The notes under the pieces are model-generated. The model was not told the origin of the DNA. It made no database searches and saw nothing but the letters and a program-made list of their open reading frames with translations. From Nemania diffusa (Eukaryota; Ascomycota; Sordariomycetes; Xylariales; Xylariaceae), in assembly GCA_038501195.1 (NCBI GenBank), contig JBBPUQ010000005.1, positions 3,100,001-3,164,000 of the forward strand: a stretch of 64,000 nt of DNA. The letters are read 5' to 3'. The position numbers and the translations under genes are program-made. Shown in pieces: positions 2,553 to 58,663 of the stretch. The stretch's first letter is position 1; each line of letters begins with the position of its first letter.

Positions 2553-2953
2553 TTAGAGCGTTGCTGCTGCCTCGACGGCACCTACAACCTTAAATGTCTT
2601 TTTGCTTGTCCAGTTGATTTCCACATTATGTGTCCATTCCATGTATCGAGCCCAGCCTGTACAGAGAAGTTAGTAGCCTATTCTACACTCTATCGCTTGA
2701 AACACAAGCGATACACCGGCGGTGACGTACTCCAGTATGCAAACTTGCGGCCGAAATATTTCCCAACAAAGGGTACCAGTATCATTGTTAGGAGGAGTTG
2801 GAGCTGCTCCAAGCTCTGCTCCCATTCCTTCTGGGCATCGTAATCGTCCTCATCGGACTCGAAGCTCTCGGTAGTTGTGGAAGGTAGAGAGTCGACGTCG
2901 TCTAAATCGGAGACGGAGACATCGGGGATGGCGAAGGAGTCGGAGAGCGACAT
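2553..2953 (-). CDS. MIM2: Mim2-like mitochondrial outer-membrane import protein
   Basis: Small protein of 108 residues. Exons on the minus strand are 2953-2731 and 2656-2553; the intron has GT..AG ends and a GCTACTAAC branch site. The N-terminal 45 residues are acidic and Ser/Asp rich. A hydrophobic segment follows (about residues 50-66, LQLLLTMILVPFVGKYFGRK), then FAYWSWARYMEW created by splicing, and a short tail ending EAAATL. This fits the fungal Mim2 family, the partner of Mim1 in the MIM complex that inserts alpha-helical proteins into the mitochondrial outer membrane. The family call rests on the tail pattern (GRK.AYW.WA.(F/Y)MEW) recalled from Mim2 proteins. The ATG at 2953 is chosen because upstream sequence in frame has no similar features. 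It faces away from eIF2-beta across about 900 bp. Confidence 0.65.
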
Positions 2954-28439: not shown

Positions 28440-30210
28440 CTATACCGACCAGCCATGCCCGAGACAAGCCTCCAGTCCAGGATAACGCCGTATAAAGTTT
28501 TCGTGCATGCCCCAATTTCGTAAATCCCATACATGTCCCGAGAACTCGTTAGTAGCGTAAATCGAGCCCGTGGAAAAATCAACCGTAAACGCCTCCGTAA
28601 TAGCCACCGGCCAGTTTCTCAGCCGCAAGTTTGTATAGTAATCGCGACGAAACTGGTCCGTGTTGTAGAAAGCCTGTCTCTCAATAATCGCGCTGCGGAG
28701 ATGAGGCCATAAAATAAAGTCCATCCACTGGGGGTGGGGTATTGCTTGTTGGTTGGGCTGCAGGGGGAAGATTTCCCTCAGCCCAATATAAGTTTCTCTC
28801 GTCGGTTGGACCAGCCAAGCGATCAGTGCCTTGAAAAGTAGAAAGACACCGACACGCTCTAAAGGGAGCTCGAGGCTATTTGCGTCGAATATTGATGTTA
28901 TAATATTGACAAGTGGAATATCAGGACCTGCCTGTGCCTGCGGACCCTGCAGACCGAGAGAACCAAGTAGATGCCCGTGGGCGTGTAGAAGAGGCCGAAT
29001 ATTTAGATTATGCGAGCCCATGAGAATCTCGCGGGCAGACTGCCCTCCAGCGAGATCCGTTAAGCGCCGGCAATTAGCAATATAGCCAGAGATGAGTGCG
29101 TCATCTTGGCAGCAAGCATTCGAGTTGAGCACTGGTATTCCCGAATACGATGGGCCCGAATGCCGTGCTAAATTTTCGCCAGAGACGCCTAGTAGTACAC
29201 CGGGTACACGTTCCACGGTGGTTGGTGGTATGTTGGAGAGATGGGCACGATGCCGATCTGTGGTGGGCATCCAAACTCTAGATGGAACTGATTAGACTTC
29301 AGCTCTGCAGGTACGATCAACAATGTTTGCGAGGGAAATTTACCTGACTTGACATCGTCAAATCCCATATCACTCGTGATACATGATGCGGCCGGCGAGT
29401 TGATCGTCGGTGGCATGCTTGATCTCTCGAGAATGGCAGACGAGGTATGAGCTGGAAAGTAATTGCTGCCAAAGTCATCTGGTGCTGCCGGAGACGACGG
29501 GCTTGAGACCGTTGACGGCAATGAACAGGGCACCGAAGAAGGCCAGACGCTTGTGGTGTCGTGGACGTTGCTGTACGGGGGCAGGTCTGACACCATAGGA
29601 TATTCAGGCGTAGAGTGCCCGTACGGAGACGCCTGAGAGCTTGAGTTATTGTATGCTGACAAATAATTAGCTTTGATACTCACAAAACTTGGAAGTGAAA
29701 CTGCGGTTTTTAAAATGGCTTTGAAGAGGGGCTTACAATTTGGGTACTGTAAAGCAGGTCCCGCATTACGGATTCCCAAGCTTTCTCGTAGGCGCCTAAC
29801 CTCGTCTTCGAGCGCCCTGTTTCTCCCTAGTAAATCTCGGACCGTCTGGTCTCGACTTTGCTGGCTCCGAAGCTCGTCTATTTCTCGCTCAAGATTTTCT
29901 ATGTGTTCCTTGGTGCGCGCTCGAATGGCTCTTTGAGCCTCTCGATCATTGGCACGCTTCCGAGCAAGCTGTGAAGGTGTGAGAGTAGATACGCTTCTGG
30001 TGCCTAAATAGCACTGTCAATGACAAATCCCGTGTTATGTGGTGTCAGGGCCGGCCTCTATAATAGATAAGACTTACCCTTACGTTTGCCAGCCTTGGCC
30101 TTGTCCGCGGTAGGCTTAGTCATATTGACTGATGATTCTGAGTAGTTTGATACAGCTGGAGAGGAATTACGAGATGAGGATGACGGGAGTGGGTGGGTGA
30201 GATGATCCAT
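28440..30210 (-). CDS. bZIP transcription factor with DUF3425 domain
   Basis: 519 residues from four minus-strand exons: 30210-30078, 30003-29737, 29655-29344 and 29287-28440. A nuclear DNA-binding regulator of the fungal bZIP-DUF3425 group, whose members often control stress or secondary metabolism. The basic region RKRANDREAQRAIRAR (about 59-74, with the N..A(Q/A)..R pattern) is followed by a leucine-zipper coiled coil (ENLEREIDELRSQ to RALEDEVRRLRESLG). A Ser/Pro-rich linker comes next, then DUF3425 from about residue 378 (LPLERVGVFLLFKALIAWL, IPHPQWMDFILWPHLR, NLRLRNWP). The start MDHLTHPL at 30210 is chosen; an in-frame ATG at 30339 would add 43 residues. The second intron (29736-29656) is 81 nt with no in-frame stop, so its retention would only add 27 residues. 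Confidence 0.88.
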
Positions 30211-32158: not shown

Positions 32159-33622
32159 CTAATTGGCAAGTTCGGGGTTCTCGTCCTTCACTGCATCAAC
32201 TAGCTCGTCTAAATTGCCAACTTCGGTTGGGCCAGCGAAACCAGGCGGGGGTAAGGCCCAGTCAGGGAGAGGACTAACATAGCTCCAACTCCCCCCAGCA
32301 TCCTCATAACGCAAGCTATGCAGCCACAACGACAGCTCTTGCTCCCCGGGATCCGTGTATAGAGGGGTATCGCAGATCTCGCAGAGTTCCCCAGACATCT
32401 TTTCTGCTTTTTTCTTGTAATATTGATCTACCATTTCGTCGTGATAGGCGACGGCATCAGCCACATCTTCTTTTCCCATCCGGTTTAGTCTTGCCATTAT
32501 GTCTTCATCTGTATTCTCGAGGGCGTCGGGGTCATTGAACCCCAGTTTAATACCCCAAACCTTTTGATTTGCATAAATTGGATCGTTTTGGATGGGATGG
32601 CCCAGATGCTGCAGATGAACCCGAAGTTGGTGGGTCCTTCCGGTGACAGGGAGACAACGAACAATCGAGTATCCTTCCTTGCGTATCCACGGCATCGATT
32701 TCTCCTCGGCAGACTCTAGGGGGGAGCCGGAGACTTCACCGGGTGCCTCGGCGGAAGATGGCCACACTCGCGGCTCGCGGGGAGGATAGTAAGCCAGCTT
32801 CTTGAAGACGGTACGGGCGGATTTTCCCTCTGCCCGTACCCTGTTTAGGCCAAGTTTGGGAGATATCTGTAGAATAGGTTGATTGCAGACGACTTCTCCG
32901 TCGGGGAAATCACCAATGACTCTGGCAAGGTACTCTTTGCGGACAGATCGCTGTTGGATCTGTGCGCCGAGTCGCTCGGCAGACTGAGGGTGCTTTGCGA
33001 CAAACATAATGCCACTCGTCAGCCTGTCTAATCTGTTGCAAGGGTGGGCGATCCACTCTGGGCCGCGCTCAGACTTCATGATCTCGATAACCGAGTTGAA
33101 ATTGTAGCGGCCGGCAGGGTGGACAGGGATCCCGGACGGCTTGTTGATCACAATCATATCGTCGTCCTCGTGGAGAATGCCGATGGGCGCCGCCGACACA
33201 GGCGGCTCGTGTCGGTGTATGGTGTGCGACAGCAGATTGCCGTTCTTGAGAATGTGATTAGGGGCCACAATTTTGCCGTTTACGCATACCTGGCCCGTCT
33301 CGATGGCATGCTTGTAATAGGAGAGCGGGCGGTCTCTAAATTCGCTCTCGAAGACATCCAGCACTTCTCTGCCCCTCCACCTCTGCTTGCACCAGGTGTT
33401 GTAGGTATAATAGTAGGGCGCCACACGGCGCAAGCCGTTGTCGAGGTAGTACGGTGCAGGCCAATCCGGATCGGGCTGTTTTTCCGAGGCTGGCGTCTCT
33501 CCGTCGGATTTTTTCAGATCCTCTACAGACAGCGACTCAAATTCAGGTATCGGGACAGCTGCAGACGCAGTTGTTGACTCCGGCGACAATAACGGCGACA
33601 TTGTTCCGGTTGTTTGACTCAC
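32159..33622 (-). CDS. RluA-family RNA pseudouridine synthase (Pus9/Rib2 type)
   Basis: 487 residues in one exon. Isomerises uridine to pseudouridine in RNA; yeast Pus9 (mitochondrial) and Pus8/Rib2 (cytoplasmic) act at U32 of tRNAs. N-terminal block YYLDNGLRRVAPYYYTY and WCKQRWRGREVLDVF, then an S4-like RNA-binding stretch (SYYKHAIETGQVCVNGKIV). The catalytic domain has ILHEDDDMIVINKPSGIPVHP, the active-site loop HPCNRLDRLTSGIMF (Asp of RLD is the nucleophile) and TGRTHQLRVHLQHLGHPI. The tail contains a CEIC...C cysteine pair. No deaminase domain follows, so it is more like Pus9 than the bifunctional Rib2. Whether it is mitochondrial cannot be decided; the N-terminus is acidic and not an obvious presequence. 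Confidence 0.88.
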   Translation of the reverse strand: MSQTTGTMSPLLSPESTTASAAVPIPEFESLSVEDLKKSDGETPASEKQPDPDWPAPYYLDNGLRRVAPYYYTYNTWCKQRWRGREVLDVFESEFRDRPLSYYKHAIETGQVCVNGKIVAPNHILKNGNLLSHTIHRHEPPVSAAPIGILHEDDDMIVINKPSGIPVHPAGRYNFNSVIEIMKSERGPEWIAHPCNRLDRLTSGIMFVAKHPQSAERLGAQIQQRSVRKEYLARVIGDFPDGEVVCNQPILQISPKLGLNRVRAEGKSARTVFKKLAYYPPREPRVWPSSAEAPGEVSGSPLESAEEKSMPWIRKEGYSIVRCLPVTGRTHQLRVHLQHLGHPIQNDPIYANQKVWGIKLGFNDPDALENTDEDIMARLNRMGKEDVADAVAYHDEMVDQYYKKKAEKMSGELCEICDTPLYTDPGEQELSLWLHSLRYEDAGGSWSYVSPLPDWALPPPGFAGPTEVGNLDELVDAVKDENPELAN

Positions 33623-34142
33623 GGTCGGTCGCGCGAAGGGCCTTCTCGCACTATGGGCGAGAGTGAAAATCGAAGTCGAGCGCGGCAGTTTAGCTTAGAA
33701 ATAAATCTAGAACATGGTTTGGCTATGCTACGCTTGTAATGATATAATATGGCAAAGTCATATGAGTTAGATAGTGTTGATCTGGTATCTATCGCACCAA
33801 CGTGCCTCAAATGGATGGAAGCGCAATCATAGAAAAATTGGCGGTTGAGCGCGGCAGAATTTGACCCCTCGCTGACAGCCCGGGCGCCTGTGCCCTGTGC
33901 AGGCCCTGTAGTGTAGGTATACCGGTCCGGCACTGATCCCCTGCCCGGCTCCCAAGATACAGTACCTGATCTAGATAGGTACCTGCTAAGATGAGGTCCC
34001 CACAGCCAGAACCTCGGCTTCGGTCCCCAGCCTCATTCAACAAATAACGGCGACAAAGTATTTCCATCTATTTTCTATTTTCTCGTGATCGAATGAAGCT
34101 CTACTTTAATTTACTCACGTATATCTCATTTTGATTAACAAC
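33623..34142. other. Divergent promoter region
   Basis: Shared upstream region of the pseudouridine synthase (-) and the thioesterase (+). No gene seen. Confidence 0.5.
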
Positions 34143-34796
34143 ATGTCATCATCAAAGCATTTAAAAAGTAGAACTCGGCAGGATTACCCCTTCGTTCTGG
34201 AATATAGGACGCGATGGTAATTATGATGAACCCCATGAATGAGATCGCGTCCCCGAGACGCGCCTCTCTACACAAAAGAGATGCCCATCCTTACTGAATT
34301 CGATAGGAGCGACAATGATATGTATGATCACATGAACAACTCGGTGTACAACTTTCTGTGAGTAGGAAATTGGAATCATAGTCGCCGCGCCGCGCCGCGC
34401 CGAGCACCAGAAGGCTCCCCTTGACTAACGCAAACGGGCCCGGCCTGCAGCTTCGACTCGGTCATCAACTCCTATCTCATGGATAACTGCGGCCTACATC
34501 CGCCTACCTCAGCCCAGCATCCGCTGATGGCGCATACCCATTGCGACTACTTCTCTGCAATCTCATACCCCAAGGTGGCTGAGCTGTGCTTACGTGTCAA
34601 CAAGCTCAGCAAATCTAGCGTAGTCTACGAAGTAGCACTGTTCGAGAAAGATGTGGAGCAGGTCAAGGCTGTTGGTGAATTTGTTCATGTCTTTGTCGAT
34701 CGTGCTACTCAGCGCCCAAATGCCAATGGAATGAATGATCAGCTCCGCCGCGGCCTACAAAAATTACTCGTAGCCGAGTCTCCTAGCAAATTATAA
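34143..34796 (+). CDS. Hot-dog fold (4HBT-like) acyl-CoA thioesterase
   Basis: 156 residues from exons 34143-34216, 34307-34357 and 34451-34796. Probably hydrolyses acyl-CoA or related thioesters; the substrate is unknown. The order FVLEYRTRW, SDNDMYDHMNNSVYNFLFDSV (about 25-45), SYLMD, then ISYPKVAELCLRVNKLSKSSV, VYEVALFE and FVHVFVDR follows the 4-hydroxybenzoyl-CoA thioesterase pattern. The Asp and the DHMNN motif on the first helix are the usual active-site region. Joining the three exons restores this motif exactly, which supports the splicing. The first 14 residues are basic. It converges on the Gfo/Idh/MocA gene with only about 75 bp between stop codons. Confidence 0.82.
34383..34402 (+). 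repeat. Four tandem CGCCG units in an intron
   Basis: A 20-nt perfect array within the second intron of the thioesterase gene, very GC-rich against its surroundings. Confidence 0.85.
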
Positions 34797-34871: not shown

Positions 34872-36077
34872 CTACTGGTACTCTAGCTTTTGCTTCGCTC
34901 CATCCTGGTCACCGCTTGTCAACATCTTCTCCAAGAGTTCCAGATCCCCCAGTGCTAGCTCCGGTATCTGCTCAGGATGGGGCTGTCCAGAGATTAAAGA
35001 CTCTGCCCAAGCCTGCACTTCTTCTTTGACCCCAAAGCTCTTCTCGAAAACCTTCTCCTCAGTCGTGGCGTCTGCCCCGATACCACGAACCGTAACGACC
35101 TTGTCAGGGCCCGCCTGCACATAGCCATGTTCGCAGGCAATGTGGAAGTCAAAAGATGACATTGTCGTCCCCGCACAATGAATGTACGAGCCCAGGACGC
35201 CGGATTTGGTTTGTAGAACGGCGTTGATCGTGTCCTTGGGGGGCAGGTGGCTCATGACTAACGATGTCATCGCGATCACGCTAGCCACGGCATCCTCCTT
35301 GCCTAGCATCTTTCTGAGCGCGGCGGTATAATGAACACCTCCGTCGAGAAGAAAACCACCCTGGTGCTGGGGTACAGTACGCCAGGGGGTATTGTAGTAT
35401 TTGTTGCTTGTCTGCATCATAGAACACAGCTTTACAACAAAGCCAGTTATCCGACCCAACTTCTTGATCTCTTCTGCGGCGTAAAACCAGCCTTTCTGGA
35501 AGCGGAAGTTTTCAGCAATGGACAGGGTCGCTCTTGTCTCTGTCGAAACCTTTTTATAGTTCTCGATGAGTTTGATGGCTGCGTCGAGACTATGAGCAAT
35601 GGGCTTCTCCGCTAAGACGTGCTTGCCAGCAGCCAGGGCTTTCTCGGTGTAGCTAGACTGATCCATGATGGGAAGGGCCAGGATAAGTCCGACGATGTCT
35701 TTGCGATTCAAAAGCTCATCATACGACTTTTCCGGGCCAGATTCAGACGAATAAACATCCACGGTAGTACCACCATCAGCCAGAATCTTGGCGGTTTCCT
35801 CGGCTGATTTTAAAGAGCGCGACCAGACCGCTTTGACAGAAACCAGAGGACAGGCAAGGACGGCAGGCTAGATTCTCACCATTAGCCAACGGATCTTAGC
35901 AGGCATTCGTACTCATTATTTGACGGCATTGGGTGAGGCGGGATTCTACCAGGCGGCCTGTGAATCATCCGCAGCGGGTGAAAAAGCAGTACAGAACTGG
36001 GATATGGGATTTACCAAGTGCTGCTCCTTTATGAAAATACCCCCACCAACAAGAGCGATTCCCAAGGGTGCCGCCAT
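34872..36077 (-). CDS. Gfo/Idh/MocA-family NAD(P)-dependent oxidoreductase
   Basis: 352 residues from exons 36077-36015 and 35867-34872 (minus). The first exon supplies the Rossmann start MAAPLGIALVGGGIFIKEQH and the second continues L-PAVLACPLVSVKAVWSRS. Next come the cofactor-domain block LILALPIMDQ and the family motif AGKHVLAEKPIAH with the conserved EKP lysine. The C-terminal domain has NFRFQ, GGFLLDGGVHYTAALRKMLG (the GG.(L/W)D.G.H pattern with the catalytic His) and SGVLGSYIHC. The full length matches the family, so the enzyme looks active. The substrate is probably a sugar or polyol derivative but is not readable. It lies head to tail with the NmrA-like gene and 6 kb from the RiPP locus; a role there is possible but unsupported. 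Confidence 0.87.
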
Positions 36078-41143: not shown

Positions 41144-41414
41144 TCAATGCCCAGCATCTCTAGATAGACCCGCGTGTCTTCCTCGGAATTGAACACCCTT
41201 CGTAGTTTCCATCTTAGACTCGAGTGTCAACTTCTTCCAGCCCATCTCGTGCGTATATAGATTGGGCAGCTTGGATCTCACGGTCCGCTGCCATCGGTTA
41301 GAAAGCTTGTTATATGTGAGTGCGATTGGATAATTACGAACCGACCAATGGCGCCGCTACGGCCAGAGTAACCATAAATGCCATGGCGGTGACGATGTTG
41401 AGGTGGAAACGCAT
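41144..41414 (-). CDS. Small secreted protein beside the RiPP locus (splicing ambiguous)
   Basis: A clear signal peptide starts at 41414: MRFHLNIVTAMAFMVTLAVA, ending VAAP. Then comes a short intron whose acceptor is well defined (CTAACCGATGGCAG, exon from 41287). Two donors are possible. GTTCGT (exon ends 41342) gives 48 residues ending ...LEEVDTRV at 41214. GTCGGT (exon ends 41346) shifts frame and gives 70 residues ending at 41144, including NLYTHEMGWKKLTLESK. Neither product has the IWLW repeat. The position 0.6 kb upstream of a UstYa-type gene suggests membership of the locus, but it could be an unrelated effector-like secreted protein. Confidence 0.5.
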
Positions 41415-42031: not shown

Positions 42032-43267
42032 ATGGAATCAAATGAACTCAGATACTCGATTATTCGGGAAGATGCGCATTGCAAAGACGACGACTCGGAC
42101 TCTGAGTTGGTGACATTTATAAAGCCCACACTAGTTCAGCGAGATGGCCGACATTCTAAATGGCTTATTTTATTAAACCTTTTTACGTTTTTATTCTCGG
42201 TATGCCTCTTAACAGCGGCTAGTCTACGGTATAAGCAAGCCCTAGATCTTGAAGCAACAAGAATAGATCCACTACAGACTCGAGAATACGGTATGTAGTA
42301 CACTACTCTAGATTATTAGTTTTGATCTAATTCTTCCCTCTGTAGCGCCTGTTGTTGAGGCTGTTGGTCAGCGACGTCCTTCGCAATATCTTGGCGAATT
42401 CGGTCAACCGTCACCATGGCGTGGTCAACCTAATGCGAAAGTAGACGAAGCATGGAACAAGATTGCTAAAAGTCTGTCTTATAGCCGTTATCAGATCATC
42501 AGACCAGCTAACAAGTGCCTTAGAGGGTGCGATTTCTATAACTAAGCAAGAAATGGAGCGACTTGGAAAGCTACACAATAGCAGCGTGATTCTTCCCGTC
42601 GAGTCAGGAGGCGGATATATGGCTGTGAGTATAATTCGTAGTCGTCTGGCCTCTTTTCAATCTTTTTTTTTTCAGTTGAAATATTATTTAAAGTCTAATC
42701 AAAGGCTTAAATAAAATGGATAGTTGCTAACCCCAAATTTAACAGTCTATGGAAGCGTCACATCAAATGCATTGCCTCGTAGGTTTCCCGGCGTAGCGAC
42801 ACCAAACCGGATCCGGTCTCTTCTGAACCCGAGATAAATTCTAGGACATGCTCCGAAAGTTCTCGTACCGAGATTACTATGCCGATAAGGCCGCTGTTTT
42901 CTCGGACCCGTTTAAATTGCGCACGCACATGGGTATGACTATGCTATGAGATATTTTCTTTCTCCCTACGCATAACAGAGGATTCCTGCTAACCATAGCT
43001 ATGATAGACCACTGCATTGAGATGCTCCGGCAGGTGATAATGTGTTCGGCCGACCTGCACATCATCACCTACGACTGGGTCGATCATGTCGACTATCCCT
43101 GGCCCGACTTCAGCATCAATCGCCAGTGCCGAAACTGGGATGATGTGATGGAATGGGTTCGTCAACGAAAGGTGATGACTAGCGCTGCTCACGGTATACT
43201 CACACGACCCGATGGCGTCGCCACTAGACCCGTTGAGCCTGTGGAGTATGTCCATTTAGACCCCTAA
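42032..43267 (+). CDS. UstYa-family (DUF3328) oxidase, copy A
   Basis: 288 residues from six exons: 42032-42290, 42346-42471, 42524-42624, 42746-42778, 42845-42932 and 43008-43267. UstYa proteins are membrane-anchored, copper-dependent enzymes that oxidatively cyclise or hydroxylate fungal RiPP cores in the secretory pathway. Features: a polar N-terminus, one membrane segment (about 44-65, WLILLNLFTFLFSVCLL), YLGEFGQPSPWRG, the block ISITKQEMERLGK, VILPVESGGGYMAS, and the paired signature HQMHC (168-172) and HMDHC (201-205), followed by MLRQVIMCSADLHIITYDW. Both metal-binding motifs are complete. The third-exon acceptor (CCTTAG at 42523) is chosen by the CTAAC branch site; its donor GTCTGT is weak. 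It is convergent with the precursor gene, with 388 bp between stop codons. Confidence 0.88.
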
Positions 43268-43655
43268 GGATCTATCTAAGGATCTGCCAGACTTGTTAGC
43301 GAGGAAGCTTAGCGCACACTAGTCTCTACGTGTTAGACTCTACGGTACCTGCATGCAATACTATTTGTATACCAAGGACATTTTCAATCGGTCAACCAAT
43401 TAATTCCAGGTGCTTAGCATTGCCGAAATACCCGGGATAACTGCCGGTATACTTATTCGGTATAGCCGGATGAAGCACGCTTCTTCGAGTTAGGTGGATC
43501 AAGTCATATGAAGCTATCGTCCTATCCTATTTGAGAACAAATCACGATAGTCACAAAGCTTAGTTCTACGTACCATGAACCAGCTCGTTCACCGCCACCG
43601 CGAATAGCCAGGTTACCCAACGCGTGAGGTATCATCAGATGAGCTCAATACCAAT
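43268..43655. other. Convergent spacer
   Basis: Between the stop codons of oxidase A and the RiPP precursor. No gene seen. Confidence 0.5.
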
Positions 43656-44227
43656 TCACCACAGCCAGATGGCGTCGTTATCTTTTGGGACGTTCCCTCT
43701 TGGCTGGACCTGATCCTTCTTCCACAACCAGATAGCATCGTTGTCAGCATCGTTGTCCTTTTGAAGCTCTCCCCTCTTCTCCAAGTCGGATTTCTTCCAA
43801 AGCCAGATGGCATCATTATCCCTCTCAAGCTTGCCCTTCTTCCAAAGCCAAATCTCGTCACTATCCTTCTCATGTTCAGCCTTCTTCCAGAGCCAAATAT
43901 CATCACTGTCCTTCTCTAGTTGACCCTTCTTCCACAACCAGATAGCATCGTTGTCAGCTTCGTTGTCCTTCTCAAGCTCTCCCTTCTTTTCGAGCTCGGC
44001 CTTCTTCCATAGCCAAATGGCGTCATTGTCCCTCTCTATCTGACCCTTCTTCCACAGCCAGATGTCATCACTATCTTTCTGGGGGTCTGAGCGTTCTAGA
44101 GCTGGTTAGTTCGGAGAAACTCGAGGCGGATTCCCTAAGCTCACGACTTACTTTCACTTCCTACTGGGAGGGCAGACGCATAGGCGAGTACTAAAGGGGC
44201 AACAAGAGCAAGTTGTTTAAGCTGCAT
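43656..44227 (-). CDS. RiPP precursor with eight Kex2-type repeats ending in IWLW
   Basis: 171 residues from exons 44227-44152 and 44095-43656 (minus). Signal peptide MQLKQLALVAPLVLAYASA, a short LPVGSE, then a KR site whose Lys codon is completed by splicing. The rest is eight units. Cores are DSDDIWLW (units 1, 4), DSDEIWLW (5) and DNDAIWLW (2, 3, 6, 7, 8); seven are followed by KK and the eighth by the stop codon. Spacers are short and acidic (GQIER, AELEK, AEHEK, GKLER). Units 3 and 7 carry an added dibasic site and GEL(E/Q)KDN(E/D)A. This is the architecture of dikaritin (ustiloxin-type) precursors: secretion, Kex2 cutting at dibasic sites, trimming and UstYa oxidation. Flanking UstYa genes on both sides support it. 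A repeated structural or pheromone-like secreted peptide is the alternative. The exact core boundary is unknown. Confidence 0.88.
43659..44086 (-). repeat. Eight-copy coding repeat (core IWLW)
   Basis: Unit lengths vary; most are 15 residues counting the KK. Nucleotide repeats are nearly identical around GATGCTATCTGGTTGTGG in units 3 and 7. The order short-S, short-N, long-N recurs (units 1-3 and 5-7), which points to duplication of a multi-unit block. Confidence 0.85.
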
Positions 44228-44865
44228 ATTGGCGATCAATCGAATTCAATCTTGAGCTGGAGTATATGAATAACAGATTCTTAGTGTTGATCTTTTGTAG
44301 ATGAGAGGGAATCAGTCATTCCAGACGCCATGTTCAGGGAGACGGCCCCCTTTAAGCATCTATATCCTCTCGACCCCGCCCTCATAACCGAGGGCGCTGA
44401 CCAATATGTGGACTCTCGTCTTACATTCATAAGTCGCCACGTCTGTCATATTGAGAAATGCCGCGTGAGACTCGTCAGTGGCTTGAGATATCCCCCGCAC
44501 CTGGTATCTAATACGATCCTGAAGGAACGCTTTCATCGTCGGTGTAGGATCTCATCCGTTATCTGTGGATAGTTGTTGTACCATCATTCGTTTTTTTAGG
44601 AAGGTGAACACTTTAGCGCTAACCTACCATACGATAATAACCTGCTTGTCCTTGTTAAGGTCGATGAAATCAACAAGTTCTGATATCATTCGTGCACTGC
44701 GCGACATAGATTTGAGTATCTCGATCCTATGCTCCTTACCCCTCATCGTCGTCTTCAACAGAGCTGTGCAGAACTTATTCTTAAACGCACTAATACCCGA
44801 GAGCATTTAACCCCTCACTTTTGTCATTCTGCCAGCCGTCCAGTCTTGCTTCATGTGCCAGATTC
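44228..44865. other. Bidirectional promoter region of precursor and oxidase B
   Basis: 638 bp separate the divergent start codons of the precursor (-) and oxidase B (+). Small frames (44330-44572 +, 44806-44624 -) resemble nothing and lie where promoters are expected. Confidence 0.5.
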
Positions 44866-45806
44866 ATGACTGAGAAAATGAGTGTCATTCAAAAGGAAAG
44901 AAAACAGGTCTATTCGCCCATCCCGGACGATCAGTCTATCACAGAATCAGATGATTTCTTGTATGAAGATTTCAAGTCATCTCGTGCAAAGAAGTCTCGT
45001 TGGTCACGATGGTTTATCTGTGGCGGTATTGTAGTCTTCTTGGCATACTCTGCAGTCTTAGTCACAATCCCTTACCTATGGCTCAAGAAGGAAAGGCTAC
45101 ATGGCGCCAATGTTATTGACAGTAAGAGCGTCCTTTCGTTGATGATCTATGTTCTTGATGTTAACCCTATTATAGCCCCAATAAGGAAGCACATCAAGTA
45201 TGAGCCTACTTACTTCGGCCACACGGAAACATCTAAAGACTACAACCTCGTCGGAAAGCCGAGTAAGGAGCTAGATGCCAACTGGAGCTCCATTATGCAG
45301 TACTTCTACGCCGAGGTCCCGAAGGAGTTTATCCAATCCTTAGACCGAGAAAGAGACAGCATTCGGCTACCTAACGGGAATTACTTGGCCAACTACGCCT
45401 TTATTCACCAGTTACACTGTCTAGTAAGTGTACTATATTAGTTCCATCAGATTTCATGATCTAACCTAGTCCAAAGAAACGTCTTCACCAATCCTACTTT
45501 CCGGAAGTATATTGGCCCGACATGACAGAAGAGGAAAAAGAGTTACAACTTGAGCACAGCCGTATGTCTGTCTGTTTCATAGCCAGGTAGCTCTACACAC
45601 TTGTTAATTTAACTAACTCTGCCCTAGTACATTGTCTGCAGATGCTTGTGGAAGTCGTCATGTGCAAGGCCGATGAAACACCCCTCACCATGATCTGGTT
45701 TGACGAGAGTATATTGCCTGGTGGTAATAGAACGATTGCCCACGAGTGCAAGAACTGGGATACACTGATTGACGGAATGGAACAAGTGAAAATAGACCCC
45801 TTGTGA
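44866..45806 (+). CDS. UstYa-family (DUF3328) oxidase, copy B
   Basis: 255 residues from exons 44866-45121, 45176-45423, 45477-45561 and 45628-45806. Same enzyme family as copy A and divergent from the precursor gene. A polar N-terminus is followed by a membrane segment (about 49-72, FICGGIVVFLAYSAVLVTIPY), IKYEPTYFGHTETSKDYNLVGKP split by other residues, ELDANWSSIM, IRLPNGNYLANYAFIHQLHC (HQLHC 163-167), then KRLHQSYFPEVYWPD and the second motif HSLHC (195-199), VVMCKAD and a C-terminal ECKNWDTLIDGM. The third exon uses an AAG acceptor (45476); TAG at 45470 would ruin the frame. The first intron is 54 nt, in frame and stop-free. The start could also be the Met at 44878 or 44821; 44866 is a compromise. 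Introns fall at the same places in both HxxHC motifs as in copy A. Confidence 0.85.
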
Positions 45807-48800
45807 GTCATTTTCGTAGTCATTTTATCCCCGTCCAAGCGGATTTTGGAGCATCAAGCTCCCTTTCTAGATTACATTCATGTCCTGGGAGCTTATAATG
45901 ACTTCGAAGCACTCACATATCACGTTTAAAATGGCGATGGCTAATTCCCAGTATTACAGTACTCCCGGGCTTTTAGTTCATCCCAAGTACGGCCCTGTTG
46001 TACCCGATGGTAGAAACACAAAGCTAGATAATAGGATAGGCTATGTCAAGAATGCCACACCTCTCGATCGGACGAAGTGGCCTTGAACGAGAGTAATCTA
46101 GGGTCAAGAGACGTTTTAGCTTCGATAGATAACTATTAAGAAGACCATACGTCGCTTTAGCAAATCCAATTTACAAGATAGGTCGCGTATAGATAAGCAG
46201 TCAGGTAGAAGCTAGGTAGCAGTATAGGGGCAGGGTTCAATATTATGGATTCCTGAGTCCTCGTTCAAGAATAGGGGCGGACTCTACTCCTTATATAATA
46301 GTAGTAATTGTTACAGATACGCTTGAGGGTCCTACAGCGACCTAGCTGCGACTTTATAGCGTAACAATCACGATCGAGCGTCGTAATCATTTAGTACGAC
46401 TACAAATAATATAGCTTTCAGGCATATCCTGATTTCTATCATAACCGCCCATAATCCGAACGCATATACTTAGAGGAGGTCCACATTATGAAACACAGCT
46501 AATCCTAGGATATGATGTTCAGCCTGTTCATAGCTAATGAGGGCATATTAGACAACATCGATACCTAGCATACCTGACCATCATGTCTCGCAGAAGTGTC
46601 AGATAACTGCATAATCAACCCGCTAGTGATCAATTCATCTTTGTATTACGTCTTTCCCTATTTTATGCCCCTTTCTTTCTTCCAGTAAAGCTCAATTATT
46701 CACTCCTGGAAGGCTACAAACGGTCAAGGTTCCCAACCTTGACAACATTCTACTTTCGCATTCAGCATCAGTGGTGTTGTGGTTTAGCGTTGCAGTTCTG
46801 TTCCGTGACACTCGATATCTACAATATGCAAAGGCCCACGTATATTAACCCTACAGTCAGCGATATAGATTCCCATCTGGGAAAGGGGGTTCGCGCCGTC
46901 TGTCACCCCTGACGGCAACTGACCTAGTACTCTCGTACATTGGTCATATTATCCGGTTTGTGAATCTTGTCAAATATGAATATCGCCTTCGATTAAAGCC
47001 CAACATGACCGGCTTCTCTCCTTCACCCTAAAACACCAAGCCAGATCTACTAATGCTTCTAGCTCACTCACCTATGCATAGCTACTCACTATCATCTTGC
47101 CAACTTTATACAACCAATGCCCCTAATGTTCTTGAGAATCTTGCGAGGTCCATGCTACAAGGTTTTTGAATTCACTGGTGATAGAGGGGAAGAGCACAGA
47201 TGATGGCAGCGCATTAGGATGTTTCTAACAGTCTCTTTCTTTGAACTAAACAGAATAACGCTGTCTTAGAATGTGCGCAAAGCTAGACTAAAGGGTAGGA
47301 TTCTGAAGCGTTGCTTGTAGTAAATATGTGTCCCAACACTTTGTATACTCTTAATTAATTTAGAAGCTACTAACTACATAAGTATCATCCTATATTGTAT
47401 CGCTCCAGTACATCCTTCAAATCATACCTGTTCCCGCTAACACTTCGGAGCCCTCATTACGCAGAGGCTGAGGGCTGGTCTTGGAACTCGCTACATTCTC
47501 TACATTGCACCAAATAACGTATCGGAACATATCACATAATCACTCAGGTCTGGAGTTATCATCGTATGTATACTATATCATGATAGGTAGGTAACGTCCC
47601 GGTACCATGTCCTACCCTCAGGTATGTTCCAGGGGTGTGGGAAGAGCAGTTCGTCCCTATAGAAATATCATGTCCTTCAAGCCGGCGACTAAGCAGTTCG
47701 TTACGTTGGGAGTACACGACTAGCATCGGTATGAGCTCGGGCGAGACAGTGTAAATGGGATGAAGGTGGGAGATGTAAGTCGGCGGGTGGTCAAGTCGAC
47801 GCCATCTGTCGTCATATGATGCCATCGTATGTCGTGCGAGGTGCATGTGAGATACTATAGACACGCTAAATATCAGTGGAGATAATCAAACTAGGCAGAG
47901 TGAAAGAGGAAAATACTAGAGTGTAGCTTAAGGTATAAGAATCACTTGGCGGGGGAATCAGCCACTCTCTAATAGTATCTCGGGGACCTGTCTGCGTCTC
48001 TCTATCTTCACGAATAGTCAAGGCACGGCAGCAACCTGACCAAAAATAGGAAATTTCAAAAAGAAAGAAAAAGCGAGCAGAAACTCCGGGGCCAAACGGG
48101 GGATATGGGTGATTTATAATCGGCGCTCCCCTTTCGCCAAGGACAAGACGAGACGGGAACCAGACACCTTGATGGCCATCCCCATCCACATCCACCCATC
48201 AGCAAGTACCTTGATGGCCTTTCCCGCCCAACCCGCGTCACCCACACCAATCATTATCGTCAAGTACGCGAAATCGATCGTACCATTGCGGCCCCGTCTA
48301 TACCGTAATCCCCTTATTGTCCCAAACGGTAGCCGCGGATGTGGCCCCCTCGTCCGATCTGGGTAAGGACTGCACCCATTGTGATCCCAACTGCAATGGC
48401 GTCTTCCCCCCACGTGCCTACTGCCGCGTTGCATGTCTTTTCTAGAACATGTCTAACCTTACCCTCCCGTCACCTTTATTTTATGGGGTATCAGGGGTAT
48501 TTGGCTTTCTTAGGTAAGGATAGAGCCGCACTTTTGACTACATCTCATCATCCATCTATCGGGCTCATAAGTATAGCATACAAGTAAGCTATACATTTAT
48601 GATTTAGTTTCTTTAATATCATAAACTCAATTATTTCGTCCCGTGAAGCTAGGTTCCCGCTTTATTTAATGATGTTTACGACAGCGAGATACGTGATGAT
48701 TTGCAAGTGCGTTCTGTCCTTCTCTCAGTCTCCCCTGCCCATTTTTATAAGACTCCAAGGCGACAGAACCAATATTGTTGCAACACATAGTATTATTGTT

Positions 48801-49048: not shown

Positions 49049-49628
49049 TTAGTGGCCGGGCATGTGGTCGAAAGCCTTCTCGAGCTTCTCGGTCATGAAA
49101 GGCAGCTTGCTGACACACCAGATCTCGGTATCCTGTTGTCATTGTGTGATTAGCCTCTCACAGAGCAGGTAGGGAATTGGAGACGGTGGTGTCAATTGGT
49201 GGGCAGCTATGGAGCTGTGGTGTAGACTTACGGGCTTGAGGGCCTTCTTGTCCTCGACGGAGAGGGTACCGGCCTTTAGGGCGATGATTGGGGGAGCGGC
49301 CTCGGGGTCGTGGTAGATGGGAGAACCGCACTCGCCGCAGAAGACACGGTGAACGGCCTTGCCAGAGGAACCGACACCAGCCCAGCTCTTGGTAGGGCCG
49401 GAGATGGTAAGCTTGTCCTTGGGGACGACAGCGACGAGAGCTATAGGGTAGTTGTGTTAGTCGATACGCGGCTCATATGCGAACGTCAACGCAGGTGGGG
49501 TTCGGCATACAGTAGGTAGATCCGGTCTGGCGCTGGCAGTCATCGCAGTGGTCGTAGGCGACGGTGAAGGGAGGCGAGTCGACAGTGTACTTGACCTGGC
49601 CGCAAAGGCAGTGACCGGAGAGACCCAT
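49049..49628 (-). CDS. GFA/CENP-V-fold zinc protein
   Basis: 136 residues from exons 49628-49511, 49440-49232 and 49132-49049 (minus). The family is named for glutathione-dependent formaldehyde-activating enzyme; most fungal members are uncharacterised cytosolic zinc proteins. The zinc-binding cysteines are clear: GHCLCGQVKY (CxC), AYDHCDDCQRQTGS (CxxC), FCGECGSPIYHD (CxxC). Further blocks are AVVPKDKLTISGP, IIALKAGTLSVED and the C-terminal IWCVSKLPF before the stop. The length matches single-domain GFA proteins. Splicing is supported by canonical donors (GTATGC, GTAAGT) and a GACTAAC branch site. The upstream flank has no linked gene. Confidence 0.9.
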
Positions 49629-52600
49629 TTTGTATGATGTAGTGGTAGAATCTGGTTTAAGAAGGGGTATATGAAGTTGATCGTTGTGTGGTATGGAAGA
49701 AGAGAATAAACGACACTGACAAAGGATTCCCCGGCCTCTTAAATACCAATTCCAAGAAAGCAAGAGATAGGAGAAGAAGAAGGATTCATTCATACATCCC
49801 GGTACCTAAACCTAATGCATACTACTGTACATACTATGTAAGGAGACTCCTATCAAATCATTTGAGCAGGGAGCTTTCCGGGTACGGAGAAGGTCGTCCT
49901 CCCCCCTCTCTCCCTCTCCCTCTACTACTGCTCTGGGTGGTAGATGCATAATTGCGAGGTCCAACCAGCATAACGGGAATTGTCTGACATGCAGAGCAGA
50001 TCCCATCGGGTGTCAGCATAGTAACTCAACTAACGTGCGGTGTGCAGTCAGCGTAGCCACTTGTATGTGCCAGCCGGGAATGGGCGTTTACTGTACCTCC
50101 AGAATGGGTCGGAAGTCAAGGCGGCGACCGTCTTGCTGTCTCGAACGGCGCGGGGCTTTGGTGAGTTTGTTTCTATGGTGGGGTAGATGCTCAGGTTGTT
50201 ATGCGCGCTGTTACGTCAGTGTGAAGACAAGGGTTGAGCCTAGCAGGTCTAGCAAGCCTAGGTGTCTAGTGTCGTGAATCTAGAGCTGTACCAAAAAAGA
50301 GGCGCCAGGCGATTTGCATTTCATGCCTATACCGATAATGGCAAATCCTAGCTCGCTCCCCGGCCGATTCGTCTTGTTAGAGGTGCCAGGTTGCAACCAC
50401 ATCTGTCTGCTACCTATCCACTCATAAGACGCGTTGTCATTCCCCTCTTATCCCAATCCAAGATAAAAGCATAATAGCTCCTTCGTGATAGTAGGTGATA
50501 AGTAGATACTCAATTCTTCAATCCTCAGCAGGACCTCAATCAATCGAGCACTCACAAATGATAGGTTCCCTACGCATAGATCAGGAATTTGAATTTGTCA
50601 CTGTTATTGTCCAATGGCTTATCGCTTAGTGAGACCCGTGGAATAAAGACCCCGTAGATGATCAGGCTGCAAATATCAAGGGCAACTCGCTGTCATGGGT
50701 TTTGTCGACCCCTCATAGCGGGGAGGATTTGGAATTTGGCAATAGGTAATCGAAAACCTTCGGAGCTAAAAGATGTTGTGCTTTGGTACCCATCCATGCA
50801 TGTAAGTAGTGCGTGCGGGTCAATCAATGGCTCCTTGTCCTTGTTCATAATACCTAGTAGCGGGCCACTGGCGGCAGGGCTTTATCTAGGGGGGCTGACG
50901 GATCTTAGGACGCTAAGTCAAACAGCCGCAGGTAGGGGGTCACCACCACGCCTTGTGCCCCCCACGATCCCATTATATTGGAATGCATAAAGAGTTCCCG
51001 CCTCATTAGGTATCTCAGGATCCCAGGTTGCAAGCTGCCTTGCTCCAATAGCTTTGAATTGGAACCGGCTCCGTAATGGGATAAGAGTTTGGAAAAGAAG
51101 GATCCAGTTTAACATTCGTATATCTTCGCCTTGTCGCCCTGTGAGCTGGAAGTAGACTATTTGCGATTGACTTCCAGAACAGGCATTATATGCAGCCCTG
51201 ACGTCTGAAAGCGGCGCCAAAGCGCACCGAATAGGATATCAAATAAATATGTCCCATGCGTATGGCGCCTATGCACAGTGCACCTGGTCGTTTCGTTGGA
51301 CGGGGGAAATCCCCGGTGTTTGAGATACTCAAATAAACAACGAAACATCGGTATACGTACCCGCGCGAAGAGGACAATTTGAGAAATAGTCTTATCGCTC
51401 GATCGGAGATAATGCACCTTACTTGAACTTTGCGGATACTACGCAGTAGATTCGGCTGCCGAGTCGCGTAGAAACCAACATGATGCCTAACCCGCACCAT
51501 GCGATTCGGTCCGCGATGAAGACCATTAGCATAGTGCCCGTATAAATACCGAGTCTTCCCCGTGTGCCAATACAAACCCGTATTTTATAAACGAGAGCCG
51601 GCAACCCCGCGGCGATCTTGAGGGTAGTCCAGATAACCTGCCGTGGCTATTGGAGGCTGCGGTCTTTTAAAGATCGGTGCTGGAAATAAGGTAAGTTTTG
51701 ATATCTAGGTAGTGCGACTTTTATCAAACTCGCAGAAAATCACATCGAAATCACGAGCCCGGTAGACGAATCTCAAATAGAACGCGGGCTAACGCCCCCA
51801 GATTCTAGATGCTCCGCAGTATCCAGCTTCCTGTCAGCCGCAGCAAACAGCCTCCGTTCATCACTCACAACTAAGACACCAGCCGGGACATATCACATGT
51901 TTAACAGCGATAGTGATAACTTGACTAAATATCTTAGATATTTTCGATAGTCAAAATCAATTGGGGCTCTAGGTTAGCGACAGGCAGTCTAATACTCTTT
52001 TTGGGGAGTCCAACTGCATAGCATATGCGAGCTCTCGCTCACAGCGAAGGGCTAAACCCCATTGCGATCGAAGGAAAATCGATAAAGCTACTCGATCGCC
52101 TACGAAACATGAATGAGGGCTTTTAGATCAGTGACGCTTGTGTGGGGCCAACGGCTTATGCGTAGCCTCTTGAGATGAATCAAGCGAGAGGTTTTGCATG
52201 GACTTTTGAGGACACACGAGGTCAATAGTATCGTCAATAGTCCTCTTGCCTTCTATATGAGGAAAGCGAATCGAATGCAAACGGATGAAATATTCATGTA
52301 TGGGGAATTGATACCAAATCTGAGAAGTCTTTTAAGGAAAGTTTCCTGTCTGATACAGACGCCGAGGCCGTAAGGACAGAACTGTTGTTTCCATCTCGAT
52401 ATATTTATCGTCTAGGGAGAGAATGTGCAGTTGTTTTCCTATCGAAAGCTTTGTCGCCGCTTTCGTTCTGCTGCCGACAAGTAGGTAAGTAATCAGCTGT
52501 CAGCCGCCATTCGCTTATCGTACGTATTCATAGCGTCTTCGGACTGAGGCTTCGGTGTTTCTCAGCTCGCAGTGTTCCCGACGCGATACGTCCGTAAACA

Positions 52601-53958: not shown

Positions 53959-54778
53959 ATGTCTGACGACTGGGATACCGCTACCAAGATTGGAAGCAAG
54001 ACACGAGGCGGCGGCGCCTCGCAGAGGGAAACAGTCGTGCGAGGAAACGCCGCCCTGAACGCAGCGAAGCGCAGCGGCGGTGCCCTCTCAACAGAGAAGA
54101 AGTACTCGACAGGCAACCAGGCAAGTCGATTCTCCATTTCCCCCACCGTCGCTATCGATCAGTCATCGCCCTCGAACCACCAACACACATGACATCACGC
54201 ACACCCATCATATGGTCACTCCATCTAGGTGGTTGTGTTTCCTATGCGTCTCTCCTGGATCCGAGTCGAATTCTTCCCCTCGTCTCGTGGCTAGCTTTCG
54301 CCCCCTTAAGTCCGCTCTCGGACCAACCAAATCGCACCAGCTTTTCTCTCCACAGTCCAAGACAAAACATCGAGCAGCTTCTCATTGCTTAAAAACTTCC
54401 CCAACCCAACGCAACTCCCTCCCAATTGTTCAAAAAAGAAAAGAGAAAACAGTGCTAACACCCCTTTCTCAGGTCGGCAAAGGTCCCGAAGGCCAGCACC
54501 TAACGAAGGTAGACCGCAGCGACGACATCATCAAGCCCAACACGGTCGGCAAGGTAGTGGGTGACGCCATCAGCGCCGCAAGGCAGAAGATGGAACCCAA
54601 GATGACGCAGAAGGACCTCGCCACGCGGTGCAATACCACTGCCGGTGTCGTCGGCGAGTTTGAGCGCGGAAGCGCCGTCCCCGACCAAAAGGTCATCAGC
54701 GCCATGGAGCGCGTCCTCAACGTCAAGCTACGCGGCCAGGGCATCGGCGAGCCCAAGTTCAAGCCCAAGGGGAAATGA
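53959..54778 (+). CDS. MBF1: Multiprotein-bridging factor 1 (MBF1) transcription coactivator
   Basis: 155 residues from exons 53959-54120 and 54473-54778. MBF1 bridges bZIP-type activators and TATA-binding protein and also acts on stalled ribosomes. The N-terminal MBF1 domain has [36 protein letters not shown] and, after the intron, [20 protein letters not shown]. The C-terminal HTH_3 (cro-like) domain has [38 protein letters not shown] and [11 protein letters not shown]. The intron of 352 nt starts with GCAAGT, a GC donor, and ends CTAACACCCCTTTCTCAG. No GT donor near 54121 keeps the frame, so the GC-AG reading is favoured. Length and order match the fungal family. Confidence 0.92.
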
Positions 54779-55737: not shown

Positions 55738-57279
55738 TTACTCCCGTGCTAGAACATCCTGCACCCGTCTCGCGATCTCAGGCTTGCCGAGCTGACAACC
55801 CGTCTCGACGACGACGTTCTCGCGCCCCGCGAGCGTGATGACGCGGACCCAGTCTGGCGCGACTTCGGTCGCGAGCAGGCGGACGCAGGCAGCGCCCTCG
55901 GGCTTCGAGATGCCCATGCGGAATGAGTCCTTGAGCTTCTCGAGCAGCGCCGCCATGGTGAAGCTGATGCGGCCGCCCATGGCGCCGTCGCTCGATGCGC
56001 GGCTGAGCATGCCGATGAGGGCGGACACCTCCTCCACGCGCTGGAGCGCGGCCCGGCGTTCAAGCTGCGCCGGCGACAAGCCAGCTGGAAGGGAGGCCTT
56101 CTGCAACGACTTTAGCCGGATGCGGTCTAGGAGGCTCATCTTTGGTGCTGCGGTATTGGCCTTTGGTGTGTCTGCTGTTGATGGCTTGGCGGCTGCAGCA
56201 GCCTTCTCTTGTTTTTTGATCGCGATGCCGTGCTTGAGGTCCTCGAGGCGCTGCTGCCCTTTCAGGAGGATGGGCGAGGCCTTAGCTACAGACTCGCAGA
56301 GTGTGACGGGGGCCTTGGGGAGCGTGGCGAGAAATCCTGATGCTCCCGTCGATGCATCGCCATCTGTATTGTTGAGGAATTCGGCCCACAGAGTGGTGAG
56401 ATTCGTGCGGAAGAGGGTATTCAGCTTGTTCTCATTCAGAGGCCCAAAACTGCGAGATTGTTCGATTTCGACACATATTTTGCCGCGTCCATAGTTAGAG
56501 AGATAGAAGGGGGTAGTGCTCGGTGATGGAGAGGATCCACCGAGAACACCTAAGCAGATTCGGATATCTGCATCCGTGACCTTCTTCTTACCCCAAGCGC
56601 GGGCGATGTTCGGGCACAGCAGTCGCACGTCGGCTGGTACATTCGAGCCATGGTGTGCGTAATGTAGCGTTAATGTCTTCAAGAATGCGGCATGGAGAGA
56701 TATAAGACTGAGAACCTCCTCGGGGAGCTTGCTGGACTTTGTGGGATTCACGTCTGACTCAATATCTGAACCCGCAATGGATGTATCCGTAGTAAGAGGG
56801 GATGAGGACCGGGATGGTGATGATTCAAGGCGCAGTTTCTTGAATAGTGCTCCAGTATCGATACTCGATATGTCAGAGTCGGAGATACTAGGGCTTCGAG
56901 CTCGCTTCCGTGGCGTGGGTTCGGGACGAGCTTTCTTGGGAGGACGACCACGGCCCCGTTTGACGGGCTGGGTTGGAGTTACTGTACTTGAAGATATGGA
57001 CTTGATAGTCGAAGGAGTAGCGATCTTATTCGGCCTCTCGTCGGCAGAAGAATCATCTTCTGTGGGTGGGATAATCTTGCGTTTTCTCGAGGCGGGTGTG
57101 ATGGCCTCGAGCTTGACATCCTTCTTGGGAGTTGACGGGCTAAGCTCCTTCTTGAGGTTGGCATTGCCGACAGTCTTAGAGACTCGAGCGAAACTGCTGA
57201 TATTCGATGATACATTTTGTTGAGAAGTCTTCGCCTTCGAACCGGCCACTCTCCTCCGCGGCTGCTTCATGGTAGGCAT
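55738..57279 (-). CDS. CDT1: DNA replication licensing factor Cdt1
   Basis: 513 residues in one exon from the ATG at 57279. Cdt1 loads the MCM2-7 helicase at origins in G1 with ORC and Cdc6. The N-terminus is basic and disordered with QNVSSNISSFARVSK, a PCNA-interaction (PIP)-like motif of weakened form, and an AT-hook-like KRGRGRPPKK (about 115). A geminin-binding/middle winged-helix-like region contains LPEEVLSLISLHAAFLKTL and LCPNIARAWGKKKVTDADI. The C-terminal MCM-binding winged helix contains MSLLDRIRLKSLQKASLP, LERRAALQRVEEVSALIGML and SFTMAALLEKLKDSF, the clearest family match. The open frame extends 32 codons further upstream; MPTMKQPRRR is taken as start because the upstream part is unlike the family. 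MKQ, three codons later, is an alternative. Confidence 0.85.
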   Translation of the reverse strand: MPTMKQPRRRVAGSKAKTSQQNVSSNISSFARVSKTVGNANLKKELSPSTPKKDVKLEAITPASRKRKIIPPTEDDSSADERPNKIATPSTIKSISSSTVTPTQPVKRGRGRPPKKARPEPTPRKRARSPSISDSDISSIDTGALFKKLRLESSPSRSSSPLTTDTSIAGSDIESDVNPTKSSKLPEEVLSLISLHAAFLKTLTLHYAHHGSNVPADVRLLCPNIARAWGKKKVTDADIRICLGVLGGSSPSPSTTPFYLSNYGRGKICVEIEQSRSFGPLNENKLNTLFRTNLTTLWAEFLNNTDGDASTGASGFLATLPKAPVTLCESVAKASPILLKGQQRLEDLKHGIAIKKQEKAAAAAKPSTADTPKANTAAPKMSLLDRIRLKSLQKASLPAGLSPAQLERRAALQRVEEVSALIGMLSRASSDGAMGGRISFTMAALLEKLKDSFRMGISKPEGAACVRLLATEVAPDWVRVITLAGRENVVVETGCQLGKPEIARRVQDVLARE

Positions 57280-58663
57280 TGTGACTGCACAACAACAACG
57301 GCGATCCCGTGGTAAATGAGGTCGCGATAATTCAGAGCGAGCACTTAAGAAGGCAAGACCAATTAATTGTGACACAATTGCAACAGTCTAAACGATTTAG
57401 AACATGCAGATCAAAACACAAGTGGCGATGCTGATGATGATGAATTGCTAGAAGCAAGAACACTCGGTTTGTTGTGAATGGAGAAAACGGGTAGAACAAG
57501 ACAGGGAAGGGAGACTTAATGGACATTAGAAGGGAGCTAAGGGAATGAAGGTCGCGACAAGGGGCGCGTCCTAAAGCGCGACAACCCCACATCGTAAGAC
57601 GCGACTTAGGAAATATTGGGCGCGTAAAGCACCCTCTGGCGCCAAAACGCCCCATTAAACAGCACGCTATGGCCAAGCCCATGTGGGGCGCATCGTGCCA
57701 AGACTCGTTTTTCTACTTTCTACAAAATATATCTTGTTTCCTCAACGACGAAAAACTAAACCCACTCTTATACCTAAGCTATTAATGACTAGATATCGTG
57801 CAAACCAAATCCTTCATCTCAACAACAAACTTCTCTTTTCTGAATTGGCCTGGATAGTTCTCTAGACCAAACAGCACTGGCGATGAGAGGCTATTTCTAT
57901 GTGTCCGGTGTCCACGTGATCGATCTACCATGCTCACAGACCACCACCTCGGCTTCTTCAGTAGGCAGATGGAGGTCATTGCGCTCTTGTTCACTCTTCA
58001 CTCCGTGCAAATACGTATGAACCTGTTCGACAACCCCAATATTCCCCACACAGTTTGCCATCAGCTCTGATGATGTAATATCCCGGGAACAATCCCGCGG
58101 GTTGTACAACAGCGCAAGCAATACCGGTACCCGCCAACCCCTCACCACAGTAGTGATACACCAAGTGAGCTATCACACAAAAAAAACTTCCCCTGTGCTC
58201 AATATCATGTCACGATCTCAGTGATTAATTATCAGCTTAATTCACTTTTTGCCCAGTGTTAAGCTAGGCGCCTTCTGCCGGCAAACTGCCTATAGGTACA
58301 CACGTGTAGACCAGTCTCGGCCTACCTTCGTCGATTAGGGTGAGTGGTAGGAAAATCCATCGCAATACCACTCTAATACAAATGATGGGTCGCGTTTACT
58401 CATCACAGAAAAAAAAATAACCTAGGGTCCAAGCCCTTGGCTCAAACGACAGCCCATACACGCCTTTCCCTCCGCTTTTGTGTAGACCTGATGCATCTGT
58501 TTCCCTTGTGCAATGCTAGTAACGCCTGGAATGACGAGAAACAAAGGAGAGAGAAACGCCTCCCCGCTAACAGTACAAATTACATCAAGAAGACTTCTTA
58601 TCCGTGGGCATGCGAACTGAGATATTATCGCTGCCCAGCCGAGTTCCACCGCCGACGCGACGA
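57280..58663. other. Spacer: CDT1 promoter, no gene recognised
   Basis: Overlapping minus-strand frames at 57782-58176 resemble nothing. GCGCG-containing stretches occur at about 57563-57620, where E2F/MBF-like ACGCG control would be plausible for a G1/S gene (GACGCGAC at 57599-57606). Confidence 0.4.

Follow-up and report, generated by a model that had tools for sequence, protein, structure and literature searches.

Two adjacent modules, each with a precursor gene divergent from the gene of its own UstYa oxidase, are probably what lies side by side in a 64,000-nucleotide stretch of Nemania diffusa DNA (C5:3100001-3164000 on contig 5, in a genome of 55.6 Mb and 16 contigs), the upstream module being perhaps decayed. 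The stretch is called here the window, and feature positions follow its numbering. The downstream module would be made up by a gene for a secreted precursor with eight IWLW cores and by the oxidase gene UstYa-2, whose product, as judged from sequence, is most likely the partner acting on the IWLW peptides; a second oxidase gene, UstYa-1, lies on the other side of the precursor gene. The two-module reading is drawn from a paralog of UstYa-1 at another locus (L028), from the head-to-head layout of the genes, and from the equal sizes of the contigs carrying relatives of the precursor and of UstYa-2 in two other fungi. All gene models are predictions from splice signals and comparison with relatives, without transcripts.

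The IWLW precursor and the flanking oxidases

42032-43267, forward strand: UstYa-1, 288 amino acids (exons 42032-42290, 42346-42471, 42524-42624, 42746-42778, 42845-42932, 43008-43267)
44227-43656, reverse strand: IWLW precursor gene, 171 amino acids (exons 44227-44152, 44095-43656), with signal peptide, KR and eight D.D.IWLW units
44063-44052, 44018-44007, 43943-43932, 43898-43887, reverse strand: first four IWLW cores
43853-43842, 43808-43797, 43733-43722, 43670-43659, reverse strand: last four IWLW cores
44866-46086, forward strand: UstYa-2, 296 amino acids (exons 44866-45121, 45176-45423, 45477-45561, 45628-45802, 45960-46086)

The precursor opens with a putative signal peptide, recognized from hydropathy and conservation, and MQLKQLALVAPLVLAYASALPVGSEKR precedes the eight D.D.IWLW units. 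Exon 2 could alternatively start at 44101; the 44095 acceptor is favoured because two related proteins, P0001 and P0002, carry KR directly behind the signal peptide. KK follows seven repeats, while the protein stops with the eighth. Towards the N-terminus, a lone K or R immediately precedes six of the repeats, and K plus an acidic spacer of four residues the other two, so that the repeats, termed dibasic-bounded in a preliminary description of the locus, are so bounded only on the C-terminal side, and there in seven cases. The region after the signal peptide holds 16 Trp and no Tyr, Phe or Cys. IWLW occurs eight times, whereas 20000 shuffles of the sequence beyond residue 21 gave two at most. 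All eight cores are identical in protein, with Ile specified by two codons and Leu by five, and this invariance despite varied codons argues for constraint on the core; the small non-synonymous count returned for IWLW by the codon script is a product of multi-step codon paths, the residues being identical. Kex2-processed repeat proteins (KEPs) are defined by a signal for secretion plus three or more similar repeats split by KR, RR or KK, and the precursor shows these features. A structural protein is disfavoured, neither the precursor nor P0001 matching any Pfam family and the repeats being Kex2-type units.

No further IWLW precursor was found in the genome, where a search with the whole protein returned only its own two exons. 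A degenerate DNA pattern for [IV]WLWKK has eight matches genome-wide, seven in the precursor gene and one on contig 7. The lone extra match resides at C7:1156437-1156454 (locus L018).

Both oxidases match Pfam PF11807 above cut-off (5.4e-56 for UstYa-1, 2.6e-39 for UstYa-2), feature an N-terminal hydrophobic stretch, and carry both copper-site motifs, HQMHC and HMDHC in UstYa-1, HQLHC and HSLHC in UstYa-2. A secreted eight-repeat precursor between two intact-looking, membrane-anchored UstYa/DUF3328 proteins, and a dikaritin-type layout in which a Kex2-repeat precursor adjoins UstYa oxidases, had been described before and are confirmed here. The end of the locus had been placed at 45806. The TGA at 45804-45806 falls within the last intron of UstYa-2, and a fifth exon (45960-46086), missed earlier, restores the C-terminus seen family-wide.

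UstYa-2 and the precursor are head-to-head, with 638 bases from ATG to ATG. Relatives of the proteins were searched across 5.8 billion proteins, matches being clusters which carry the name of one representative. The UstYa-2 model without the fifth exon, used as query, gave 34 accepted relatives of 205 candidates, in genera which we take to belong to Xylariales, Sordariales, Pleosporales and Coniochaetales; the closest, from Nemania abortiva, is 91% identical. UstYa-1 gave 18 of 527; its identity to an incomplete protein of Nemania sp. is 88%. The exact H..HC motif is present twice in 26/34 UstYa-2 and 16/18 UstYa-1 relatives. The ten exceptions are short models (166-236 amino acids), P0014 having a second motif one residue longer. 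AlphaFold2 models are poor, with a mean predicted local distance difference test score (pLDDT) of 55.1 for a UstYa-1 relative and 54.1 for a UstYa-2 relative, the membrane helix being the best part. Among solved structures, no sequence match to the UstYa-2 profile was found, and the 12 obtained for UstYa-1 are at chance level (E 0.95 and above).

Probable pairing of precursors and oxidases

The precursor search, which accepts only proteins 0.55 to 1.75 times the query length, yielded three relatives of 63 candidates, one from Thyridium curvatum (P0003) and two from Xylariomycetidae (P0001, P0002). These three and the query, four proteins in total, start with MQ[LIV][KR][QK]LA, contain several copies of an [IV]WLW core, and stop right at the last Trp. 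A second type of Trp-bearing unit was observed amid the WLW units of two relatives, PSVIWPA-KR in P0002 and NTMFWAG-KK in P0003.

In Xylariaceae sp. FL0255 the precursor relative P0001 and the UstYa-2 relative P0026 each reside on a contig of 265514 bases, and in Xylariomycetidae sp. FL0641 P0002 and the UstYa-2 relative P0031 each on a contig of 142785 bases. We take this to mean that precursor and UstYa-2 relatives share one contig in both fungi. Neither FL0255 nor FL0641 is named among the 18 UstYa-1 relatives, 5 of which are nameless, and cluster members may hide behind the name of a representative.

UstYa matches elsewhere in the genome fall in 28 places by our own grouping, and 20 of these loci were scanned for precursors and paralogs. 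UstYa-2 has no close paralog, the best match being 41% identical over one exon, at locus L033. UstYa-1 has one on contig 3, at C3:2308709-2309922 (L028), with identities of 46, 64, 64 and 57% over four exons and 40% over an overlapping fifth; the summed score is 343.6 bits vs. 141.3 for the next among the 20 loci, a result with which a whole-genome search concurs. The L028 paralog has a precursor of its own, head-to-head, with the ATG 693 bases away. A short open reading frame (ORF) faces UstYa-1 in the same way, with 617 bases from ATG to ATG.

C3:2302000-2311900, local 5399-6295, reverse strand: L028 precursor (VQNTVY seven times, FINILY four times)
41214..41414, reverse strand: short secreted ORF, 48 amino acids as modelled (exons 41414-41342, 41287-41214), candidate UstYa-1 precursor in reduced form

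Within this genome, the short ORF can be aligned with the L028 precursor along the signal peptide and then over EIQAAQ-SIYARDGLEEV vs. EVSAVQNTVYKRDAGEEV. None of 5000 shuffles reaches the score of the whole proteins, and 18/5000 reach that of the mature parts (37), the latter figure being the fair one because shuffling the whole protein mixes signal and mature residues. Against five other precursors of the genome the mature short ORF gives no signal, 504 to 1966 of 2000 shuffles reaching the score. Its donor reads GTTCGT, and the KR position reads AR. The short ORF may represent the remnant of a precursor, a precursor with one core only, or a chance occurrence.

Weighing the readings

Several points weigh against two modules. 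The linkage in FL0255 and FL0641 was read from equal contig sizes, not from DNA; Thyridium P0003 has no partner among the UstYa-2 relatives; and 34 UstYa-2 relatives stand against three precursor relatives, many genera being without such a precursor in the length-limited search. The similarity of the short ORF is modest and was spotted only after the paralogous locus was known; searched against the genome, the short ORF finds only its own exons (E 0.001), and the L028 precursor only itself (E 10). At L028 a further, more distant UstYa match flanks the precursor from the opposite side, which places this precursor, too, between two oxidases. Lastly, intron 2 of UstYa-2 (45424-45476), between HQLHCL and KRLH, requires an AAAG acceptor.

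The layout at L028 also fits a single cluster, in which the IWLW precursor would be a substrate of both UstYa-1 and UstYa-2, on the model of UstYa and UstYb in ustiloxin formation. This is in line with the location of the precursor between both genes within 4.1 kb, with the intact motifs of UstYa-1 and its identity to the Nemania protein, and with the average of 1.7 DUF3328 genes reported for KEP genes having such a neighbour (PMC7329392). UstYa-1 may, in this case, have been recruited after the decay of its own precursor. The two fungi in which the precursor pairs with UstYa-2 are, however, not named among the UstYa-1 relatives, and the paralog of UstYa-1 faces a different precursor, to which the short ORF facing UstYa-1 is modestly similar. 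We hold the single cluster unlikely, and the minimal two-oxidase system suggested in the preliminary description is not supported.

Linear, unmodified secreted peptides, of a signal or pheromone-like KEP kind and with the oxidases as bystanders, seem improbable: 6120/7878 surveyed KEPs have no DUF3328 gene nearby (PMC7329392), and Kex2- and Kex1-type proteases suffice to make such peptides, yet UstYa-2 and the precursor are paired in two further fungi as well, and the precursor has no Cys after the signal peptide, unlike the alpha pheromones described with two Cys (PMC6339444), nor do any of its ten post-signal fragments start with the Ste13 dipeptides XA or XP.

The AAAG acceptor might be a lesion which truncates UstYa-2 behind the first HxxHC, the module being broken in this strain, a view compatible with any of the other readings for related strains. 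The AAAG site is required because a TAG acceptor of the usual type, 7 bases upstream, shifts the frame; in addition, P0044 and P0049 retain the intron as in-frame coding sequence, with a last codon for Gln compatible with a CAG acceptor. However, the TAG lies directly behind a branch-like CTAAC and is perhaps too close to it for use, the following exon is conserved in protein, and a later exon still encodes an intact C-terminus of the family type. The gene models of P0029 and P0043 lack a few residues at precisely this position; other species may therefore share the oddity of the site. A broken module seems improbable.

Returning to the two modules, we infer for the IWLW peptides the processing, the secretion, a cross-link with its partners, and a biological role. 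The precursor would enter the secretory pathway and be cut behind KK by a Kex2-type protease, and a carboxypeptidase would then remove the lysines. Domains of processing proteases are encoded in the genome (exon matches: one P-domain, two DPPIV_N, 14 Peptidase_S10). DUF3328 proteins are described as membrane-associated binuclear copper enzymes needing O2, with the site HxxHC(x)nHxxHC (PMC12435403), and one such protein forms the ether cross-link of asperipin (PMC12186524). UstYa-2, membrane-bound and, by family, binuclear in copper and O2-dependent, would oxidise the IWLW core, the likeliest chemistry being a loss of 2 H which links one Trp to the other, or a Trp to Ile or Leu. The two Trp are spaced two apart, as are Tyr and Ile in the YAIG of ustiloxin. 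The MH+ values calculated for the linear form and for forms lighter by 2 H and 4 H are 617.3446, 615.3289 and 613.3133 for IWLW, 1032.4785, 1030.4629 and 1028.4472 for DNDAIWLW, and 1049.4574, 1047.4418 and 1045.4261 for DSDDIWLW. In the upstream module the oxidase would have been kept, while the precursor would seemingly have shrunk to a single unit that lacks a dibasic site. We tentatively propose, as a possibility short of probable, that a single UstYa-type oxidase, without tyrosinase or second oxidase, cross-links the Trp of IWLW (Trp-Trp or Trp-Ile/Leu), that this Trp-linked family is kept across Xylariales and Thyridium, and that the sister module is being lost, its oxidase kept for reuse.

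Surroundings and comparison with known systems

The companion scan by Pfam covered 34 distinct ORFs of the window, including 29 of the 102 ORFs of at least 75 amino acids in 30-60 kb. In line with the earlier remark that the usual companions are missing nearby, no tyrosinase, methyltransferase, S41 peptidase, transporter or zinc-finger regulator was found among these 34, from which genes with short exons could escape. The Pfam matches are:

28440-29291: DUF3425 ORF
32162-33694: pseudouridine synthase ORF
34425-34793: thioesterase ORF
34872-35867: GFO/IDH oxidoreductase ORF
49142-49805: GFA, two ORFs
54059-54778: helix-turn-helix domain ORF
55741-57387: Cdt1 ORF

A composition of the kind left by repeat-induced point mutation (RIP) was rejected for the locus, the composite index being only -0.31 to 0.03 across 40 to 48 kb. 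At 62000-64000 the TpA/ApT ratio is raised (1.44) and the composite index is 0.53, suggestive of RIP-mutated repeats.

Repeated words beside dibasic sites reveal repeat precursors at 5 of the 20 scanned UstYa loci, L028 and the four listed below; the same scan found none at the other 15 loci, and no second one in the window. All five have Tyr and no Trp in the dibasic-bounded part.

C3:5684500-5694400, local 7037-7657, forward strand: L023 precursor, KR-bounded SFKYPF units, with a UstYa match about 2 kb away
C6:2674500-2684400, local 6777-7178, forward strand: L026 precursor, DYIFIDLPD-KR units, with a UstYa match 1.5 kb away
C9:816700-826600, local 2325-2714, forward strand: L033 precursor, YQLVVSVHDIEEPAP units, near the UstYa match which is the best, distant paralog of UstYa-2
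C4:2234300-2244200, local 6759-7487, forward strand: L035 precursor, LPIALIESLIGKN...GSAYDEDVA units, near a UstYa match

The DY.I pattern at L026 resembles the EDYXI motif given for ustiloxins and phomopsins (PMC6339444). In a survey of 1461 strains published in 2020, 1758 of 7878 KEPs have a DUF3328 gene near, the W content rate of the KEPs so flanked being 20.5% (PMC7329392). The association of precursor and UstYa genes is common both in this genome and in the survey, and the layout is therefore already known. The less usual part is a Trp-only core with one conserved oxidase, a small two-gene system in which indole coupling by DUF3328 enzymes could be tested. The string WLW is absent from the main texts of PMC6339444 and PMC7329392; the family may already be among the entries of their supplementary tables. 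Judged by titles or abstract starts, no dikaritin with a Trp core is evident in the literature searched, and among the matches listed for the string IWLW none is, by title, on fungal peptides.

Like KEPs (PMC6339444, PMC7329392), the IWLW precursor is a small secreted protein in which Kex2-type sites separate at least three repeats. The L028 pair shares the head-to-head arrangement of precursor and UstYa genes, a last core coinciding with the protein end, and the oxidase clade of UstYa-1; the L028 cores bear Tyr and are not similar to IWLW. By 2022 the dikaritins on record numbered only five (PMC10512285), compared with the 1758 surveyed KEPs that have a DUF3328 neighbour (PMC7329392). With dikaritins (ustiloxin, phomopsin and asperipin-2a, and also victorin and epichloecyclin) the locus has in common the signal peptide, the repeated cores with acidic residues and a dibasic site at their flanks, and a nearby UstYa/DUF3328 gene (PMC6514808, PMC10512285); a KEP precursor with PF11807 homologs near, both retaining the two HxxHC motifs, is what was found. 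With an acidic stretch ahead of the core and a basic pair after it, the repeats recall the ED and KR motifs around the ustiloxin core (PMC6514808). The core Tyr typical of dikaritins is missing from I-W-L-W, and the neighbouring second oxidase has a candidate precursor of its own. Tyr is not universal in dikaritin cores, as Phe is used in victorin (PMC9233826). A lean cluster is not new: that of asperipin-2a comprises one UstYa homolog, a transporter and a reductase (PMC6514808), and is without most of the common companions.

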